Shown here piece after piece: positions 29,651 through 63,950 of a DNA stretch of 64,000 nucleotides. Both the position numbers and the translations under genes were made by a program. Each line of letters opens with the position of its first letter. Position 1 is the stretch's first letter. Under the pieces are notes generated by a model. It did no database searches. It saw only the letters and a program-made list of their open reading frames with translations, and had not been told where the DNA came from. This stretch comes from Candidatus Saccharimonadota bacterium (lineage in GTDB: Bacteria > Patescibacteriota > Saccharimonadia > Saccharimonadales > UBA4665): NCBI GenBank assembly GCA_013289705.1, contig JABCZM010000003.1:1-64000 (forward strand). The letters are read 5' to 3'.

Positions 29651-32638
29651 TTATGAAACTTTGCGGAGGCTGACCGTCAGCGCCGTGCCCTCAACTTTCA
29701 CGATTGTACTAAACCGTTCCGGAACCTCGGCAGGCAGTTTGCCAGCAAGCTCAGTAGCCAGTGTCTCGTCAAGAATAGTCGTCTTATGTTCGGCAATAGC
29801 CTTCATAACCTCATCATCATCCGTTTGCAAGCTCAAAGCAATCCGATCATCCACATTAAGTCCGGCCGCCTTGCGAGCCTGCTGTACGTTCCGAACCACT
29901 TCGCGCATCAAGCCTTCACGCTTGAGTGCTGATGTCAGTTCGATATCAAGCTTGATACTTGGCTCTTTGCCTTCTTTACCCATCACTTTTTTAACATTTA
30001 ACTCCTCTGCCAAGATGTTCTGCAGCTCTATTTTGTCGGCATCCAGAATATCAAACGGCAGCACAACCGTAGCGCTTGCCAGTGGCTGGCGAACTTTGAT
30101 GCCAGCCTCAGCACGCGCCGATAAACCTTCGTTAATCAGTTGACGAACTGCCGCCATTTCACCCAATAGTAGTTCATTAACGTGCCCAGCCTTTGGCCAA
30201 TTAAGCAGATGCACGGACTCGCCAAGCTCACCACCAGTTAGTTTCAAAAACAGTTCTTCGGCCAGAAACGGTGTAAACGGCGCCAAGATCATGCTCAGCT
30301 GCAGCAAGACGTAGTGCAACGTTTTGTATGCAGCATTTTTGTCGGTATCATCCCCAGCGCCTGCGGCGATATTTGATGATTTCCAGAATCGGCGGCGAGA
30401 TCGGCGGACATACCAGTTGCTGGCATCGTCCAAAAACGGCAAGACCTCAGCCAAAGCGTTAGGGATGTCGTACCCGTCCATGTGTTCAGCAACATGCTGA
30501 CTTAATTGATGTAATCGTGACACCACCCATTGATCTAGTGGATTATGTAACTCCTCCGATGGGTCATTGATTGTACCGTTCCATCCCCACTTATCAACGT
30601 CAGCATATGTTGTAAAGAAGTCATACATATTCCAAATCATTGCCAATTTTCTCTGCACGTCTTGGACTTCTTTGTCCTTCAAGGCGAAGTCTTCGCCGTT
30701 CAAAAGCGGACTTTGCAGTAGCAAGAAGCGTAGTGCATCTGCACTATATTCGTCCATCAGTAAATTCGGATCAGTAAAGTTTCCGAGCGATTTGCTCATT
30801 TTACGGCCATCATTGCCGGCAACATTGCCGGTTACAATAACATTTTTGAAGGCATTGTGGCCAAAGAGTCCAGTATTCACGGCATGGACATAATAGAACC
30901 AAGCCCGCACCTGGCCCACGTACTCAACGATGAAATCACCAGGGAAATTGGCCTCGAACTTCTCTTTGTTTTCGAACGGATAATGGAACTGAGCAAATGG
31001 CATGCTACCACTCTCGAACCAGCAGTCTAATACCTTATCAATTCGGTGATAATCAACACCACCAATCGTGAAGGTAATATCATCAACCCACGGCCGGTGA
31101 TAATCCTCTAATTCAACACCACTTAATTCCTTAAGCTCCGCATAACTGCCAATGACTTTAATGTGTTCTTTGCCGTCTTTGTCGGTGCCTTTCCAGACAG
31201 GCATTGCCGTCGCCCAGAAGCGGTCGCGGCTAAGATTCCAATCTGGCGCGGTCTGCACCGTTTTTTCGAAACGGCCGTGCTTAATGTGCTCCGGAAACCA
31301 GTTGATGTGCTCGGTGTTTTCTTCGAGCATCTGGGTCCGCTGACCAGCAACATCCATAAACCAACTAGGGTGAGCCCGATACATCAGGCGATTACCCGTG
31401 CGTGGGTTGTGCGGGTATTCGTGACGAATATAGTCAATCTTCCAAACCACACCCCGAGCTAGTAACTCCTTGGCAATGGTCTTATTAATCTCCCAGACGT
31501 CTTTGCCCTGCCAGTCACCTTCGCTATACCTACCATACTCATCCAGCACATGAACAACGGGAATACCCTTTTCTTTGGCCAAATCGAAGTCCTCTTCACC
31601 ATATGCAGGCGCCAAATGCACAATACCCGAACCATGCGGATCTTCAATATCGGTACGCACGTAGTCGGCATGCCATACCTTCTGAGCGTTTTTGCCCCGA
31701 TCTTCAAATAATGATTCGTACGACAGTCCCACCAGCTCTTCGCCGCGGATCATCCGGGTTACCGTGTAGTCAAGCGGATTGTGCTTCTCATCTGTTAAAA
31801 CCGCGCCAACCCGATCGCTGGCCATGATTAACAGCTCACCATTTACCTCAACCTCACTGTACGAGGAGCCCTTGTTCACGGCGATGGCGGTGTTTCCGGG
31901 CAGTGTCCAGGGTGTTGTTGTCCAGGCCAATAGGTAGATTGGTTTTTTAGGATCTGCTTTTTCGTCGCCAACCGCCTTGACTGCATCAAGCAGCTTAAAT
32001 TTCACATACACACTAGGGTCAGTGACTTCAATGTAGGCGCCGGCATCCATCGTTACCTCGGCCTTGCTGAGCGGCGTGGCCCACTTGGTGTCATACATCA
32101 GCACACGTTCACCCTCGTAAATCTTGCCTGATTCGTACAATTCCTTAAAAGCCCACCAAACGCTCTCCATATAGTCCCTGTCCATGGTGCGGTAAGCATC
32201 CTTCATATCAACCCAACGGCCAACGCGATCAACCGTATCTTCCCAAAGCCCGCTGGTTTGCACCATACTTTCGCGAGCAGTGGTGATGTAATCGGCTAAG
32301 CTAATCTTCGTACCAATTTCATGGCGATCAGTGATACCGAGCTTTTTCTCGACAAAATTTTCGGCCGGTAAACCGTGACAATCCCAACCCCAGACCCGCT
32401 CCACACGCTTGCCCTTCATGGTCCAGTAACGCGGTACGGCATCTTTAATAACACTGGAAAGCAATGTTCCAACGTGTGGCACCCCTGTTATAAACGGTGG
32501 CCCATCGTAAAACACATAGGCGTCATCTTTTGGCCGATTTTCTACCGACTTTTCAAACGTCTTGTACTCTTTCCAATACTGCACCAAATCCTTCTCGTAT
32601 TCGATCGCCTTGCGACGCTGTCCTGCCTTGTATTTCAT
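29651..32638 (-). CDS. ileS: Isoleucyl-tRNA synthetase
   Basis: A 995-aa class I synthetase that charges tRNA-Ile. The HIGH box reads PHVGT, so its last histidine is Thr, as in some archaeal-type IleRS. The KMSKS box is canonical (GRKMSKSLGN), and the editing domain (TTTPWTLPGN) and anticodon-binding region are present. The long insertion and GRWVD segment suit the eukaryote-like IleRS2 type often linked to low mupirocin sensitivity; that is a family inference. Its ATG overlaps the stop of a 26-codon ORF by ATGA, and the whole unit lies behind a T-box-like leader. Confidence 0.96.
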   Translation of the reverse strand: MKYKAGQRRKAIEYEKDLVQYWKEYKTFEKSVENRPKDDAYVFYDGPPFITGVPHVGTLLSSVIKDAVPRYWTMKGKRVERVWGWDCHGLPAENFVEKKLGITDRHEIGTKISLADYITTARESMVQTSGLWEDTVDRVGRWVDMKDAYRTMDRDYMESVWWAFKELYESGKIYEGERVLMYDTKWATPLSKAEVTMDAGAYIEVTDPSVYVKFKLLDAVKAVGDEKADPKKPIYLLAWTTTPWTLPGNTAIAVNKGSSYSEVEVNGELLIMASDRVGAVLTDEKHNPLDYTVTRMIRGEELVGLSYESLFEDRGKNAQKVWHADYVRTDIEDPHGSGIVHLAPAYGEEDFDLAKEKGIPVVHVLDEYGRYSEGDWQGKDVWEINKTIAKELLARGVVWKIDYIRHEYPHNPRTGNRLMYRAHPSWFMDVAGQRTQMLEENTEHINWFPEHIKHGRFEKTVQTAPDWNLSRDRFWATAMPVWKGTDKDGKEHIKVIGSYAELKELSGVELEDYHRPWVDDITFTIGGVDYHRIDKVLDCWFESGSMPFAQFHYPFENKEKFEANFPGDFIVEYVGQVRAWFYYVHAVNTGLFGHNAFKNVIVTGNVAGNDGRKMSKSLGNFTDPNLLMDEYSADALRFLLLQSPLLNGEDFALKDKEVQDVQRKLAMIWNMYDFFTTYADVDKWGWNGTINDPSEELHNPLDQWVVSRLHQLSQHVAEHMDGYDIPNALAEVLPFLDDASNWYVRRSRRRFWKSSNIAAGAGDDTDKNAAYKTLHYVLLQLSMILAPFTPFLAEELFLKLTGGELGESVHLLNWPKAGHVNELLLGEMAAVRQLINEGLSARAEAGIKVRQPLASATVVLPFDILDADKIELQNILAEELNVKKVMGKEGKEPSIKLDIELTSALKREGLMREVVRNVQQARKAAGLNVDDRIALSLQTDDDEVMKAIAEHKTTILDETLATELAGKLPAEVPERFSTIVKVEGTALTVSLRKVS

Positions 32639-32715
32639 GCTGCCTCCTCAAGATATCCATATTTACTCTCATTTGGGTACTCGCCACGAATCGAAATTTC
32701 TGCCCATTTTTTCAT
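32635..32715 (-). CDS. 26-aa ORF wedged between the GNAT gene and ileS
   Basis: A 27-codon frame (MKKWAEISIRG to YLEEAA) fills the gap between the GNAT gene and ileS exactly. Its ATG overlaps the GNAT TGA by 4 nt (ATGA) and its own TGA overlaps the ileS ATG in the same way. An AGGAGG ribosome site for ileS is embedded in its last codons. This arrangement suggests termination-reinitiation coupling. The peptide has no recognised family and could itself be functional or act only as a translational bridge. Confidence 0.5.
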   Translation of the reverse strand: MKKWAEISIRGEYPNESKYGYLEEAA

Positions 32716-33245
32716 TTATTTGTCTCCCTTACCATTCGTATAGATGGCATCGTGTCGGCGTGCCGATATTCCGACCCCTCTATCTTCTTAAATCCTTGTT
32801 TCTCATAAAATCGTTTTGCGCGGCTGTTATAATCCACAACCGCCAACTCAACTGGCTGATGCGGATCCCAAAAGGCATCAGCAAGGCCGAACAATTGCTG
32901 AGCCAACCCAGTCCCCTGATAGTCCTTATCGATATAAAGCGCACGGAGCTCTTGCTTTCCAGTGTGTCGTGAGGCGTGTAACAGTGCAACGACTCGCTTG
33001 TCGACACTGGCAATTCGGTACAACTGTTCCGGATCGGCCAAAAATGACCGCACATAGTTACGGCTTTCTTCCAACCTCTCTGACGAGTCCCAATCCCGCC
33101 ATTGCTCACGAACCCAAGCCTTGCTTACGCCGGCCTCATCGTTTGGATAAGTATTTAGCCAAGATGCGGCGTGAAAAGCACGAATAGCTGGCACATCGTC
33201 GAGTGTTGCCTGGCGTATAACTGGTTGCTTATTGACTAACTTCAT
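32712..33245 (-). CDS. GNAT-family N-acetyltransferase
   Basis: A 177-aa GCN5-related acetyltransferase. Strand-helix elements run from IRQATLDDVPAIRAFHAASW through LRALYIDKDYQGTGLAQQLF, whose QGTGLA matches the acetyl-CoA pyrophosphate loop, to NSRAKRFYEKQGFKKIEG near the C-terminus. The substrate cannot be deduced. It is the first gene after the T-box leader and is coupled to ileS through the 26-aa ORF, so it is probably induced when charged tRNA-Ile is scarce. Whether it acetylates a translation component is unknown. Confidence 0.9.
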   Translation of the reverse strand: MKLVNKQPVIRQATLDDVPAIRAFHAASWLNTYPNDEAGVSKAWVREQWRDWDSSERLEESRNYVRSFLADPEQLYRIASVDKRVVALLHASRHTGKQELRALYIDKDYQGTGLAQQLFGLADAFWDPHQPVELAVVDYNSRAKRFYEKQGFKKIEGSEYRHADTMPSIRMVRETNK

Positions 33246-33457
33246 GGCAAATAAAAAATCCCTTTTGTCTGTCAGAACCCGTAATCTTGTACGATTTGGG
33301 GCGGTACCATCTGACTTCCAAAAGAGATTATCCTCTTGTTTGGCGCTTCGTTGTGGCTATTACGGGCTGTCCGTCGAGATCTACTTGGCCAAGGCCGTTC
33401 TGCTCGCTGCTTCGTGGTTGATAGCCACTCATCTCTGTCATCAGAGAACGCATTTCG
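33246..33457 (-). promoter_or_regulatory. T-box-like leader of the ileS operon
   Basis: The leader RNA (about 212 nt) has an 8-bp basal helix (GTGGCTAT/ATAGCCAC) enclosing a long arm. It then carries the T-box core TGGTACCGCC (33300-33309), whose bulge would pair with a tRNA ending in ACCA. The core lies inside a terminator: ATCTCTTTTG (33319-33328) pairs with CAAAAGGGAT (33258-33267), GTCAGA pairs with TCTGAC within it, and a run of six T follows. I cannot assign the specifier codon with confidence. Confidence 0.75.
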
Positions 33458-33463
33458 CTTCTT

Positions 33464-33492
33464 AATATAGCGTAAAAGTACAAAACTTACAA
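33464..33492 (-). promoter_or_regulatory. Promoter of the ileS T-box transcript
   Basis: Minus-strand -35 TTGTAA (33487-33492), 17-bp spacer and -10 TATATT (33464-33469), immediately upstream of the structured leader. Confidence 0.65.
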
Positions 33493-59684: not shown

Positions 59685-59977
59685 GCACATGAGACACCCG
59701 CTTTCGCGGGTTTCTCATCGCACCTTACCGAGTGAATCGGCATTTCGCTTGCAGCGAAACCGGTGCTACTCTTCCCAGCCAGTAGTAAACTGAAGCTGAG
59801 CCGAGGTTATTGGTGTCCATGAGTTTTGTTACAAATTCACGGATGAAATTTTGAAAATACAATTTATTCTTTGAAACAAACGAATATTTAATGGTGATAA
59901 ACACCAATAACTAGTCAATTGCTACCTTATATCTTATCTCCAACTAGTAAACCAGCCGGAGAGGCAGATAAAAGGTC
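59685..59977 (-). other. 23S-5S spacer
   Basis: No tRNA found. It contains a GAGA-ACCCGC/GCGGGT-TCTC hairpin (about 59691-59717) and the 3' arm of the 23S processing stem (59903-59922). Confidence 0.7.
59903..59922 (-). promoter_or_regulatory. 3' arm of 23S processing stem
   Basis: ACCAATAACTAGTCAATTGC is perfectly complementary to 63951-63970 across the 23S gene; the 20-bp duplex is the expected RNase III-type substrate. Confidence 0.75.
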
Positions 59978-60257
59978 ATAAAAAGTCGATGGGACTATTA
60001 GTACGCTTCGGCTACATATGTTGCCATACTTCCACCTTGCGCCTATCAAACTGATCGTCTTTCAGTGTCCTCATAGGGAAATCTAATCTTGAGACTAGTT
60101 TCGCGCTTAATATGCTTTCAGCGCTTATCTATTCCGCACATAGCTACCCAACAATGCCCTTGGTAGAACAATTGGTACACCAGCGGTGCGTTCATTCCGG
60201 TCCTCTCGTACTAGGAACAAACTCTCTCAAATTTCCTGACGTCCACAGCGGATATAA

Positions 60258-60291
<34 letters not shown>

Positions 60292-60409
60292 ACGTACCTC
60301 TTTAACCGGCGAACAGCCGGACCCTTGGAAGGTGCTCCCCCTCCAGGATGAGATGAGCCGACATCGAGGTGCCAAACAGCGCCGTCTATGTGAACTATTG
60401 GGCGCTATA

Positions 60410-60440
<31 letters not shown>

Positions 60441-60848
60441 AAAGCGCTGCCGATACCACATTCTTGTACAAATGTACTGACAGCGGAAAACTTACTCCGA
60501 CTTTCGTCCCTGCTTGAGTTGTAGCTCTCACAGTCAAGCTGGCTTTTGCGTATATACTATCGATTCGATTTCCATCCGAACCTAGCCAACCTTTGAACGC
60601 CTCCGATACTCTTTAGGAGGCAACCGCCCCAGTTAAACTACCCATCAGACACGGTCCCGGAACCAGAAGATAGTAACGAGGGGCTCAAAACCTTTAGGTT
60701 TTGTCTCATTACCATTTTGTGGTCCCGGTAAGAATAAGATCGTATTAAGGGAGGTATTTCACTGGCGACTCCACTTTCGCTAGCGCAAAAGCTTCAAAGT
60801 CTCCCTCCTATGCTACACATAATACGACCCGATCCAATGTCAAACTGT

Positions 60849-60880
<32 letters not shown>

Positions 60881-60976
60881 GCGGACAGACGGCATCTTTA
60901 CCGTCAATGCACTTTCACCGAGCTCTTCGCTGAGACAGTACCCATATCATTACGCCATTCGTGCGGGTCAGAACTT

Positions 60977-61681
60977 CAATTTAGTTAGCTATTCGTTTCC
61001 GAATAGATCAGACTATCTTTTCATCTCGCCAGAATTCTTAGGAGTTCCTCTTTGGTATTGCGTCGAAGACCAGATACATTCATAAGATAACTCTCATTAA
61101 TGATTTCCGTAAGATGCTCAACATTTAAGTGTTTTGACTGATTAATCAGTAAGCACGTCCGTGTGAATATCTCAAAATCCTGCGCTTTAGTTGTTCGTAG
61201 TGGATATTCTTGAAAGTGCGGGATGATTCGTGTAATTAGATCACCGATCGAACGTACTTCATATTTGTACATCTGATCGTGTTTACTAAAACGAATTGCA
61301 CCACACCCGAAATAGGCATGAATGTCTTTCAGTACCTGAAGGCTGCGTTTATTCTGTGCGACACTGAAACTTGGTCTTACTTCTATGCCTGTTTTCAGTT
61401 TTGCACGTCGGTTAAAACTAACCGAAAAACAACCTTCTCCATCTACAAATCCTGTTATATACCAAGAAAAATCCGTAAATTCCTTTTTTTGACGAGAGCC
61501 AACGTATTGTACATCTTGTTTCATATGTACCTCTCCTTTCGGATCAGTCGTTACGGCTTCCATTCATTTACATGAATGATTGCCACGGGATTGTCATTGT
61601 GCCAAATATGACACTTTAGATTTCCCCGTTATTAGTTGGTTTACTCTAAGCAGATCACTCTGCTTTTCAGGCAAATTCATT
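60977..61681 (-). other. Group I intron in 23S rRNA
   Basis: 705 bp interrupting the conserved TTGTCAGGT^AAGTTCTGACC near E. coli position 1950. The 5' exon ends in U and the intron ends in G, the group I hallmarks. P1 forms between exon TCAGGT and intron GCCTGA with a U-G pair at the splice site, and P10 between intron GAATTT and 3' exon AAGTTC. A GCAGA/TCTGC P2 hairpin follows. It encodes a homing endonuclease on the same strand. Confidence 0.9.
61021..61524 (-). CDS. LAGLIDADG homing endonuclease of the 23S intron
   Basis: A 167-aa single-motif LAGLIDADG endonuclease (WYITGFVDGEGCFSVSF), expected to work as a homodimer that cuts intronless 23S genes. After the motif come RPSFSVAQNKRSLQVLKDIHAYFG and DLITRIIPHFQEYPL, typical of intron-encoded members of the family. 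ATG 61524 has an AAGGAGAGG ribosome site 6 nt upstream; the frame continues 13 codons upstream into intron structure. The acidic catalytic residue of the motif is intact, so it is probably active. Confidence 0.92.
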   Translation of the reverse strand: MKQDVQYVGSRQKKEFTDFSWYITGFVDGEGCFSVSFNRRAKLKTGIEVRPSFSVAQNKRSLQVLKDIHAYFGCGAIRFSKHDQMYKYEVRSIGDLITRIIPHFQEYPLRTTKAQDFEIFTRTCLLINQSKHLNVEHLTEIINESYLMNVSGLRRNTKEELLRILAR

Positions 61682-61873
61682 ACCTGACAAGGAATTTCGC
61701 TACCTTAGGACGGTTATAGTTACCGCCGCCGTTCACTGGGGCTTCAGTTCGCACCGTGAAGCACTCCCCTTAACCTTCCAGCACCGGGCAGGCGTCAGCC
61801 CGTATACATCCACTTTCGTGTTAGCACAGACCTATGTTTTTGGTAAACAGTTGCATGGGTTCTTTAGCTGCGG

Positions 61874-62060
61874 CCCCCTCACTCTATCAACCACGATAAA
61901 GTCAGTAATTGGGGTCAGCTTTCTAATTGATATGTCTCAAAAGCTTGGTAGACATACATACGTAAGAAGTTAAAAACTTACGTAGTAATCATTGATTGTT
62001 TTCAAAAAGAAAACTGGCTACAATTGTTTGCTTCCTACTCTGATTAACAGAGTGAGGGGG
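61874..62060 (-). other. Expansion of 23S helix 63
   Basis: CCCCCTCACTCT (61874-61885) and AGAGTGAGGGGG (62049-62060) pair and enclose about 160 nt, where common bacteria have about 40 in all. The insert is AT-rich and contains TACGTAAG/CTTACGTA. Confidence 0.75.
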
Positions 62061-63243
62061 CAGGCCTTATTCCGAAGTTACGGCCGCTTGTTTGCCGAGT
62101 TCCTTAGCGAAGAATCACTCGTACACCTTGGTCTTCTCGACCTGAGCACCTGTGTCGGTTTGCGGTACGGATGATGTTGTACACACGATAGATTGCTTTT
62201 CTAGTCAGTACTTTCATTGGAATTCAACCAAAAGGTCGTTTCATTCGTGCCCATTTCTGACACTTAGACGGATATAACCATGAACCCGCTCCAACTAATA
62301 TCCCGCGCACATCTAACAAATACAACACCAGTACGGGAATATTAACCCGTTGTCCATCGCCTACGCTACGCGCCTCGGCTTAGGACCGACTAACCCTGGG
62401 ACGATTACCGTGGCCCAGGAAACCTTGCTCTTTCGGTGGGCAGGATTCTCACCTGCCTTATGGTTACTCATTCCAGCATTCTCACTTGATACCGCTCCAC
62501 CGAACCTCACAGTTCGACTTCTATGCAATATCAACGCTCCTCTACCACGCCACAATAAATTGTGACATCCATATCTTCGGTACTATGCTTAGCCCCGTTA
62601 CATTTTCCGCGCGAGATCTCTTGACTAGTGAGCTGTTACGCACTCTTTAAATGAATGGCTGCTTCTAAGCCAACATCCTAGTTGTTTAAGAAATCTCACC
62701 TCGTTTCCCACTTAGCATAGATTTGGGGACCTTAGATGATGGTCTGGGCTGTTTCCCTTTTGAGCGACGAGCTTAGCCCCGCCGTTCTAACTGCAACGAT
62801 ACCACAGATAGTATTCGTAGTTTGTCAAGGGTGGGTAATCGTAAGACCCCCAGTCCGAAACAGAGCTCTACCCCTATCTGCTACCACGTCACGCTAGCCC
62901 TAAAGCTATTTCGAGGAGAACCAGCTATCTCCGAGTTCGATTAGCATTTCACCACTAACCACAGGTCATCCGGGCGTTTTGCAACACACTACGGTTCGGC
63001 CCTCCACGCACTTTTACATGCGCTTCAGCCTGCCCATGGTTAGGTCACTCGGTTTCGGGTCTATTTATTATTACTTATCGGCCTATTCAGCCTCGCTTTC
63101 ACTGTGCCTCCGTCATATGACTTAGGCTTGCAATAACAAATAACTCGCTGGATCGTTCTACAAAAAGCACGCTGTCACAGAATAAATCTGCTCCAACTCC
63201 TTGTACGCACACAATTTCAGGTTCTATTTCACTCCCCTTCCGG

Positions 63244-63284
<41 letters not shown>

Positions 63285-63950
63285 ATCATACAATATATTT
63301 AGCCTTGGAGGGTGGACCCTCCAGCTTCAGTCAGGATTTCACGTGCCCCGACCTACTCGACACATAAATGATAAAGTTTGCGGCACTTTGCATACCCGGC
63401 TTTCACGGTCTCTGGCCAGTCTTTCCAAACTGTTCTGCTCGCATCGCAATTTTCTAAAACTTTATGCAGGTTGGTGTTAGCGCCTGCTTCCAATCCCGAC
63501 ATCTCCACGAGTGGAGATTTCAGGACTGGTTATTTATATGTCACAACCCTCTTATAACATTCGTCTAACAACTTATTTACCCTTTCATCTATCCTCGAGA
63601 GGATAAATTGCCAGGCAAAAGTCATAAAAGTTTGGGCTCTTCCGCGTTCGCTCGCCACTACTTACGGAATCGTTGTTTACTTTCTATTCCTCGGGGTACT
63701 AAGATGTTTCAGTTCCCCCGGTTACCACATCATCGCCCTATATATTCAGGCAAGTGTCATATGACATTACTCATATGGGGTTTCCCCATTCGGATATCTC
63801 CGGTTCAAAGTTTGATTAGCAACTCCCCGGAGCTTTTCGCAGCTCTCTACGTCCTTCTTCGGTATTGTATGTCAAGGCATCCTTTGTGTGCGCTTGAGTA
63901 ACTTTTTACTAATGTAATGAGGCAAACCCGAAGGTTCATCTCAAAACAGT

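Follow-up and report, generated by a model that had tools for sequence, protein, structure and literature searches.

A T-box-type leader with a nested terminator ahead of ileS in a Saccharibacterium

Background

Does the leader preceding the isoleucine-tRNA ligase gene (ileS) of a tiny host-dependent bacterium, a Saccharibacterium (Patescibacteria), act as an RNA switch sensing uncharged isoleucine tRNA and, if so, which of its helices is switched? The first question was raised by an earlier note, based on sequence alone, in which a good promoter, an 8-bp basal helix, a T-box core and an overlapping terminator were interpreted as tRNA-Ile-sensing attenuation of a GNAT acetyltransferase gene and ileS. 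The window analysed here is a 64,000-nt stretch of contig JABCZM010000003.1 (assembly GCA_013289705.1). Published surveys place T-boxes in Firmicutes, Actinobacteria, Chloroflexi, Deinococcus-Thermus and a few Proteobacteria (PMC2494555, PMC3766115), and it is debated whether they arose in Firmicutes or earlier.

Results and discussion

The leader and its surroundings

All proposed elements were present on the minus strand (Table 1). The promoter-like site displayed 9 of 12 consensus matches, yet two such sites were found in 800 bases against 0.9 expected by chance, making it weak evidence on its own. Besides the T-box core AGATGGTACCGCC there is a terminator made of an 11-bp helix stacked around a 6-bp helix and then six T. 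The leader folded better than 199 of 200 shuffled sequences (z -3.07). The 8-bp basal helix of the earlier note (GTGGCTAT with ATAGCCAC) exists and belongs to the minimum-energy fold, where it competes with Stem I, but it is not conserved: the longest pairing run at that place averaged 4.62 in 87 leaders against 4.81 after shuffling. The conserved element there is instead a 4-bp hairpin whose 7-nt loop carries AUC. Further along the window, the 23S rRNA spans 3932 nt against a model of 2925, with inserts visible in the alignment.

Table 1. Features of the ileS leader and neighbouring genes; positions are those of the window.
Feature	Position	Strand	Remarks
Promoter-like site	33464-33492	-	TTGTAA-17-TATATT; chance not excluded
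RF00230 alignment	33270-33441	-	End to end, 19.9 bits
Stem I (ultrashort)	33414-33428	-	4-bp hairpin GUGG/CCAC, 7-nt loop CUAUCAA; 100% of cells paired, double changes at 3 of 4 pairs
Specifier codon	33420-33422	-	AUC (Ile); A12 T13 C14 invariant in 55 leaders
Stem II	33374-33407	-	S-turn strands AGAAC and AGUAGA; double changes at 5 of 5 pairs
Stem IIA/B region	33351-33373	-	Helix IIA CGG/CCG; pseudoknot partner only weakly tested
Purine string RRRxG	33344-33348	-	AAGCG, before Stem III; motif as described in PMC7583486
Purine string to AA linker	33316-33348	-	AAGCG...AA
Stem III (ON state)	33318-33343	-	
Helix A1, 5' strand	33310-33315	-	GUCAGA
T-box bulge	33303-33309	-	UGGUACC; UGGU complements ACCA of tRNA-Ile
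Helix A2 hairpin and A1 3' strand	33271-33302	-	A1 3' strand UCUGAC (33271-33276)
Nested terminator, 5' arm	33319-33329	-	AAUCUCUUUUG; overlaps Stem III 3' arm
Nested terminator, 3' arm	33257-33267	-	CAAAAGGGAUU
U tract	33253-33258	-	Six T
GNAT acetyltransferase gene	32712-33245	-	177 aa
26-codon frame	32635-32715	-	MKKWAEISIRGEYPNESKYGYLEEAA; overlaps GNAT stop and ileS start
ileS	29651-32638	-	Isoleucine-tRNA ligase, 995 aa; tRNA-synt_1, Anticodon_1
23S rRNA	59977-63908	-	

Evidence for a T-box

A search of the whole window at the Rfam gathering cut-off revealed no T-box. With a low threshold, model RF00230 aligned end to end with the leader but scored only 19.9 bits (E 0.018 in a short search) against a cut-off of 93. 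A second low-scoring match (28 bits) occurred in the same genome upstream of thrS. Among 197 genomes of the order, RF00230 matched 44 at E 0.1, none of them above the cut-off. Comparative evidence was much stronger. The closest relatives of the IleRS in the genome collection were mostly labelled Saccharibacteria or Saccharimonadia, the others being unnamed bacteria or Patescibacteria, with two labelled Pacebacteria/Paceibacterota. Eighty loci were kept (designated L followed by a number), of which L097, L099 and L105 have no upstream DNA. In an alignment of 55 saccharibacterial leaders, RNAalifold gave 23 pairs, 18 of them with compensatory changes; counted on that structure, 97.3% of cells pair and 322 cells have changes on both sides, against 98.5 in shuffles and 18-46 when the structure was slid.

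The model built from this alignment (R1) scored the window at 109.4 bits. It found one match in 76 of the 77 named ileS loci with upstream DNA (all but L098), always upstream of ileS and in its direction, and nothing else in 804,070 bases at E 1, although many of these loci also fed the model. L104 and L110, the two loci labelled Pacebacteria/Paceibacterota, matched weakly (30.6 and 38.2 bits). At E 0.01, R1 matched 144 of 197 genomes of the order and 141 of 379 of the phylum, whereas RF00230 matched 131 of the 379, 13 of them above its cut-off. Some patescibacterial T-boxes are thus visible to Rfam as curated, but none is in the 197 genomes of this order. R1 did not see the thrS leader, so its counts are lower bounds and lean to Ile-type leaders.

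Other T-box hallmarks were also recorded. Stem II with its S-turn, helix A1 and helix A2 are conserved, and the purine string is followed, beyond Stem III, by an AA linker, which was found in 51 of 67 nested and 15 of 19 classic leaders (see below for these classes). A test of the IIA/B pseudoknot gave a small effect only, from crude detection. Two ileS T-boxes (L042 3807-3914 and L092 2586-2704) seem to have lost Stem II while keeping Stem I, IIA/B, Stem III and A1.

Specifier codons and discriminators

Under a strict rule (hairpin of 4 bp or more, 7-nt loop, Ile codon at loop positions 3-5, ahead of TGGNACC), 65 of 77 loci displayed the hairpin; when the rest were read by eye, all 76 leaders found by R1 carried AUC in the hairpin. 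Outside the order, 60 R1 matches were examined. The first gene is an aminoacyl-tRNA ligase in 53 of them (29 ileS, 16 valS, 7 aspS-type and 1 tyrS) and another frame in seven (L167, L177, L183, L184, L186, L189, L191). One of the latter, L186 (61-200), has a T-box-like leader with AUC in its hairpin upstream of a 168-aa protein matching the RelA/SpoT family, a possible link between tRNA charging and alarmone-type enzymes.

A hairpin scan called a cognate codon in 51 of the 53 leaders (AUC 27, GUC 16, AAC 4, GAC 3, UAC 1), missing by its rule L182 (AUC followed by C) and L187 (3-bp stem). The same scan inside the downstream genes called 3-9 of 53, and permuted gene labels gave 26.3 on average and 37 at most in 2000 trials. 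It should be noted that the cognate call was the top-scoring hairpin in 35 of 53 and that 3.06 amino acids were called per locus on average. Reading codons by the register of R1 gave 37 of 53, failing on larger loops. AAC was counted as cognate for aspS-type genes because non-discriminating ligases also charge tRNA-Asn; of the four AAC cases, L156 and L195 match that family best, but L169 and L171 match ordinary AspRS best, which is against it.

In the genome of the window, tRNA-Ile(GAU) has discriminator A, matching UGGU. The three tRNA-Thr have discriminator U, matching UGGA in the second T-box, upstream of thrS (L001 1501-1654, own genome C3:95341-95494, minus strand); this leader displays a hairpin GCGG[AATTCACCAA]CCGC with ACC, the bulge UGGAACC and a long terminator. 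Likewise, tRNA-Asp and tRNA-Asn of this genome have G, and five of seven aspS-type leaders elsewhere have UGGC, the other two (L169 and L195) having UGGU. One misfit is the leader of L026, with UGGG.

Organization of the terminator

After removal of 2 of 90 leaders identical to others, 88 distinct AUC leaders were compared. In 67 of them, including the one studied here, the 5' arm of the terminator lies upstream of the T-box, so that the terminator encloses A1/A2 (nested class). Nineteen have a classic terminator with its 5' arm downstream of the bulge, one has neither and one has no U tract. In the nested class, the 5' arm overlaps the 3' arm of Stem III by at least 4 nt in 59 of 67. Swapping 3' arms between species weakened pairing from -14.97 to -7.93 kcal/mol and none of 10,000 permutations reached the own value, although relatedness was not corrected for. 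In 25 leaders aligned in one register (an alignment of 59 nested leaders mixed two registers and was set aside), 11 of 14 terminator pairs showed changes on both sides; over all 22 pairs counted, A1 included, there were 65 such cells against 17.0 in shuffles. Stem III was less well supported on the same alignment, with 5 of 9 pairs showing double changes, 78.7% of cells paired and further pair types no better than shuffles (397 of 500).

In the fold through the terminator, A1 persisted in 66 of 67 nested leaders but in only 3 of 19 classic ones. For the window, the ON and OFF folds have -22.5 and -29.1 kcal/mol, respectively; OFF is thus more stable by 6.6 kcal/mol here, and by 11.1 on average, as a default-off switch needs. 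The same nested layout occurs in the complete saccharibacterial genome TM7i (L113). Outside the order, terminator classes were less clean (of 60, 21 nested, 25 classic, 11 none and 3 without U tract), and several nested calls there pair with the IIA/B region and are doubtful. In L144, L145, L163, L172, L174, L175 and L183 there is no clear Stem III, and the purine string itself (AAGCACC, AAGTCCAC) is the 5' arm of a terminator enclosing A1/A2. In L158, L160, L164, L167, L176, L184, L194 and L196 the terminator hairpin directly abuts A1 with at most 1-2 nt overlap, which leaves unexplained how tRNA binding would prevent it.

Genes placed under the leader

The GNAT gene lies between leader and ileS, which starts 73 nt further. 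Of 62 other named loci, 20 have more than 150 nt between the antiterminator and ileS. Frames found there include homologues of the GNAT in 4 (L057, L080, L089 and L100; blastp E 2e-44 to 7e-24), three mutually similar frames in L041, L043 and L062, and others, so that genes are repeatedly placed under this leader. In the window, the GNAT stop, a 26-codon frame and the ileS start overlap successively by a few bases, which suggests one transcript. The 26-codon frame resembles pieces of a 117-aa frame found between T-box and ileS in L051 and may be a remnant of that gene. NCBIfam also has an ileS family with a GNAT domain.

Interpretation

The reading of the earlier note was supported: RF00230 does hit the leader, though far below its cut-off, and an isoleucine codon lies at the specifier position. 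Two corrections are needed, since the 8-bp helix is not the conserved Stem I and since terminator and antiterminator do not exclude each other in the usual way. On computational evidence only, we consider it probable that the leader is a T-box-type riboswitch acting on transcription. In the inferred mechanism, tRNA-Ile(GAU) pairs with AUC in the ultrashort Stem I, held by the Stem II S-turn. If uncharged, its ACCA end would pair with UGGU in the bulge between A1 and A2 and the purines flanking Stem III would lock on; this would hold Stem III, RNA polymerase would pass and GNAT-ileS would be made. If the tRNA is charged or absent, the strand following A1 (CAAAAGGGAUU) would displace the 5' arm of Stem III and pair with its 3' arm, building the 11-bp helix underneath the intact A1/A2 hairpin. 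We therefore infer that Stem III, not the antiterminator, is the switched helix and that A1/A2 belongs to both states. The invading strand would first meet the base of Stem III next to the purine string that contacts the tRNA end, a natural place for control. Yet, transcriptional T-boxes are described as generally needing a long Stem I (PMC7583486), which this leader lacks.

The best surviving alternative, which we nevertheless find unlikely, is a T-box following the classic scheme, where tRNA decides whether A1/A2 forms and Stem III melts only as a consequence, the nested layout being a detail. The 19 classic leaders show that the tRNA-binding part works with that scheme in this clade, and tRNA-assisted annealing of the A1/A2 3' strands has been described (PMC7583486). 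However, in nested leaders A1 pairs equally in the terminated fold and the downstream strand pairs with Stem III, not with A1 or A2. A translational T-box as in actinobacterial ileS, with a hairpin hiding the ribosome-binding site and an incidental U run, appears very doubtful. Ultrashort Stem I is described mainly in translational T-boxes (PMC7583486), and one relative (L037 882-1036) has no U tract and a hairpin GTATC-GAAAGGA-GATAC holding its Shine-Dalgarno, perhaps a translational version. Yet, 86 of 88 leaders have a helix of score 14 or more directly followed by 4 or more T, and here the GNAT start codon lies outside the hairpin and no Shine-Dalgarno is covered. A decayed or tRNA-independent attenuator, or a leader-peptide attenuator, is hardly tenable despite the low Rfam score, given the compensatory changes in every core helix, the cognate codons and the discriminator match, and since no conserved reading frame rich in Ile codons was seen by eye in the leaders inspected.

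A broader reading, which seems to us more likely than not, is that Patescibacteria carry their own broad lineage of transcriptional T-boxes with an ultrashort Stem I, largely invisible to the Rfam cut-off, and that Saccharibacteria evolved a switch in which Stem III is the contested helix, the "antiterminator" hairpin being a permanent part of the terminator and serving only as the tRNA-end sensor. In some other Patescibacteria, Stem III would be gone and the purine string itself would form the terminator arm. Such a lineage bears directly on the debated origin of T-boxes and would be one of few concrete gene-regulation mechanisms in these host-dependent bacteria. The nested design predicts that the aminoacylation sensor can work without the antiterminator being the switched helix, and that a T-box can act in time on transcription without the long Stem I. 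No report of T-boxes in Patescibacteria was found in literature searches that did not cover most subscription journals or any bioRxiv preprints, so that the lineage is new only as far as could be searched. What the switch appears to sense and the gene it governs are ordinary.

Comparison with known T-boxes

Canonical transcriptional (class I) T-boxes (RF00230) share with this leader the specifier codon, the Stem II S-turn, the Stem III purine string, A1/A2 with a UGGN bulge, an intrinsic terminator and aminoacyl-tRNA ligase genes downstream. They differ in that Stem I is here only about 15 nt, without the distal part binding the tRNA elbow, and in that the terminator encloses A1/A2 instead of replacing it, contrary to the described scheme in which A1/A2 3' strands become the terminator 5' strand (PMC7583486).

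Translational (class II) ileS T-boxes of Actinobacteria with ultrashort Stem I (Sherwood 2015, as cited in PMC7583486 and PMC10651847) likewise display a short Stem I, Stem II with S-turn, IIA/B and an ileS target, but the leaders described here end in intrinsic terminators and not in a ribosome-site sequestrator. TBDB applied its translational model to Actinobacteria and to class I hits with truncated Stem I (PMC7778990).

Finally, T-boxes with a classic terminator in some Saccharibacteria (for example L103, L107-L109, L111 and L112) have the same leader core, the same gene and the same codon, but their A1 3' strand is the terminator 5' arm, as in the textbook.
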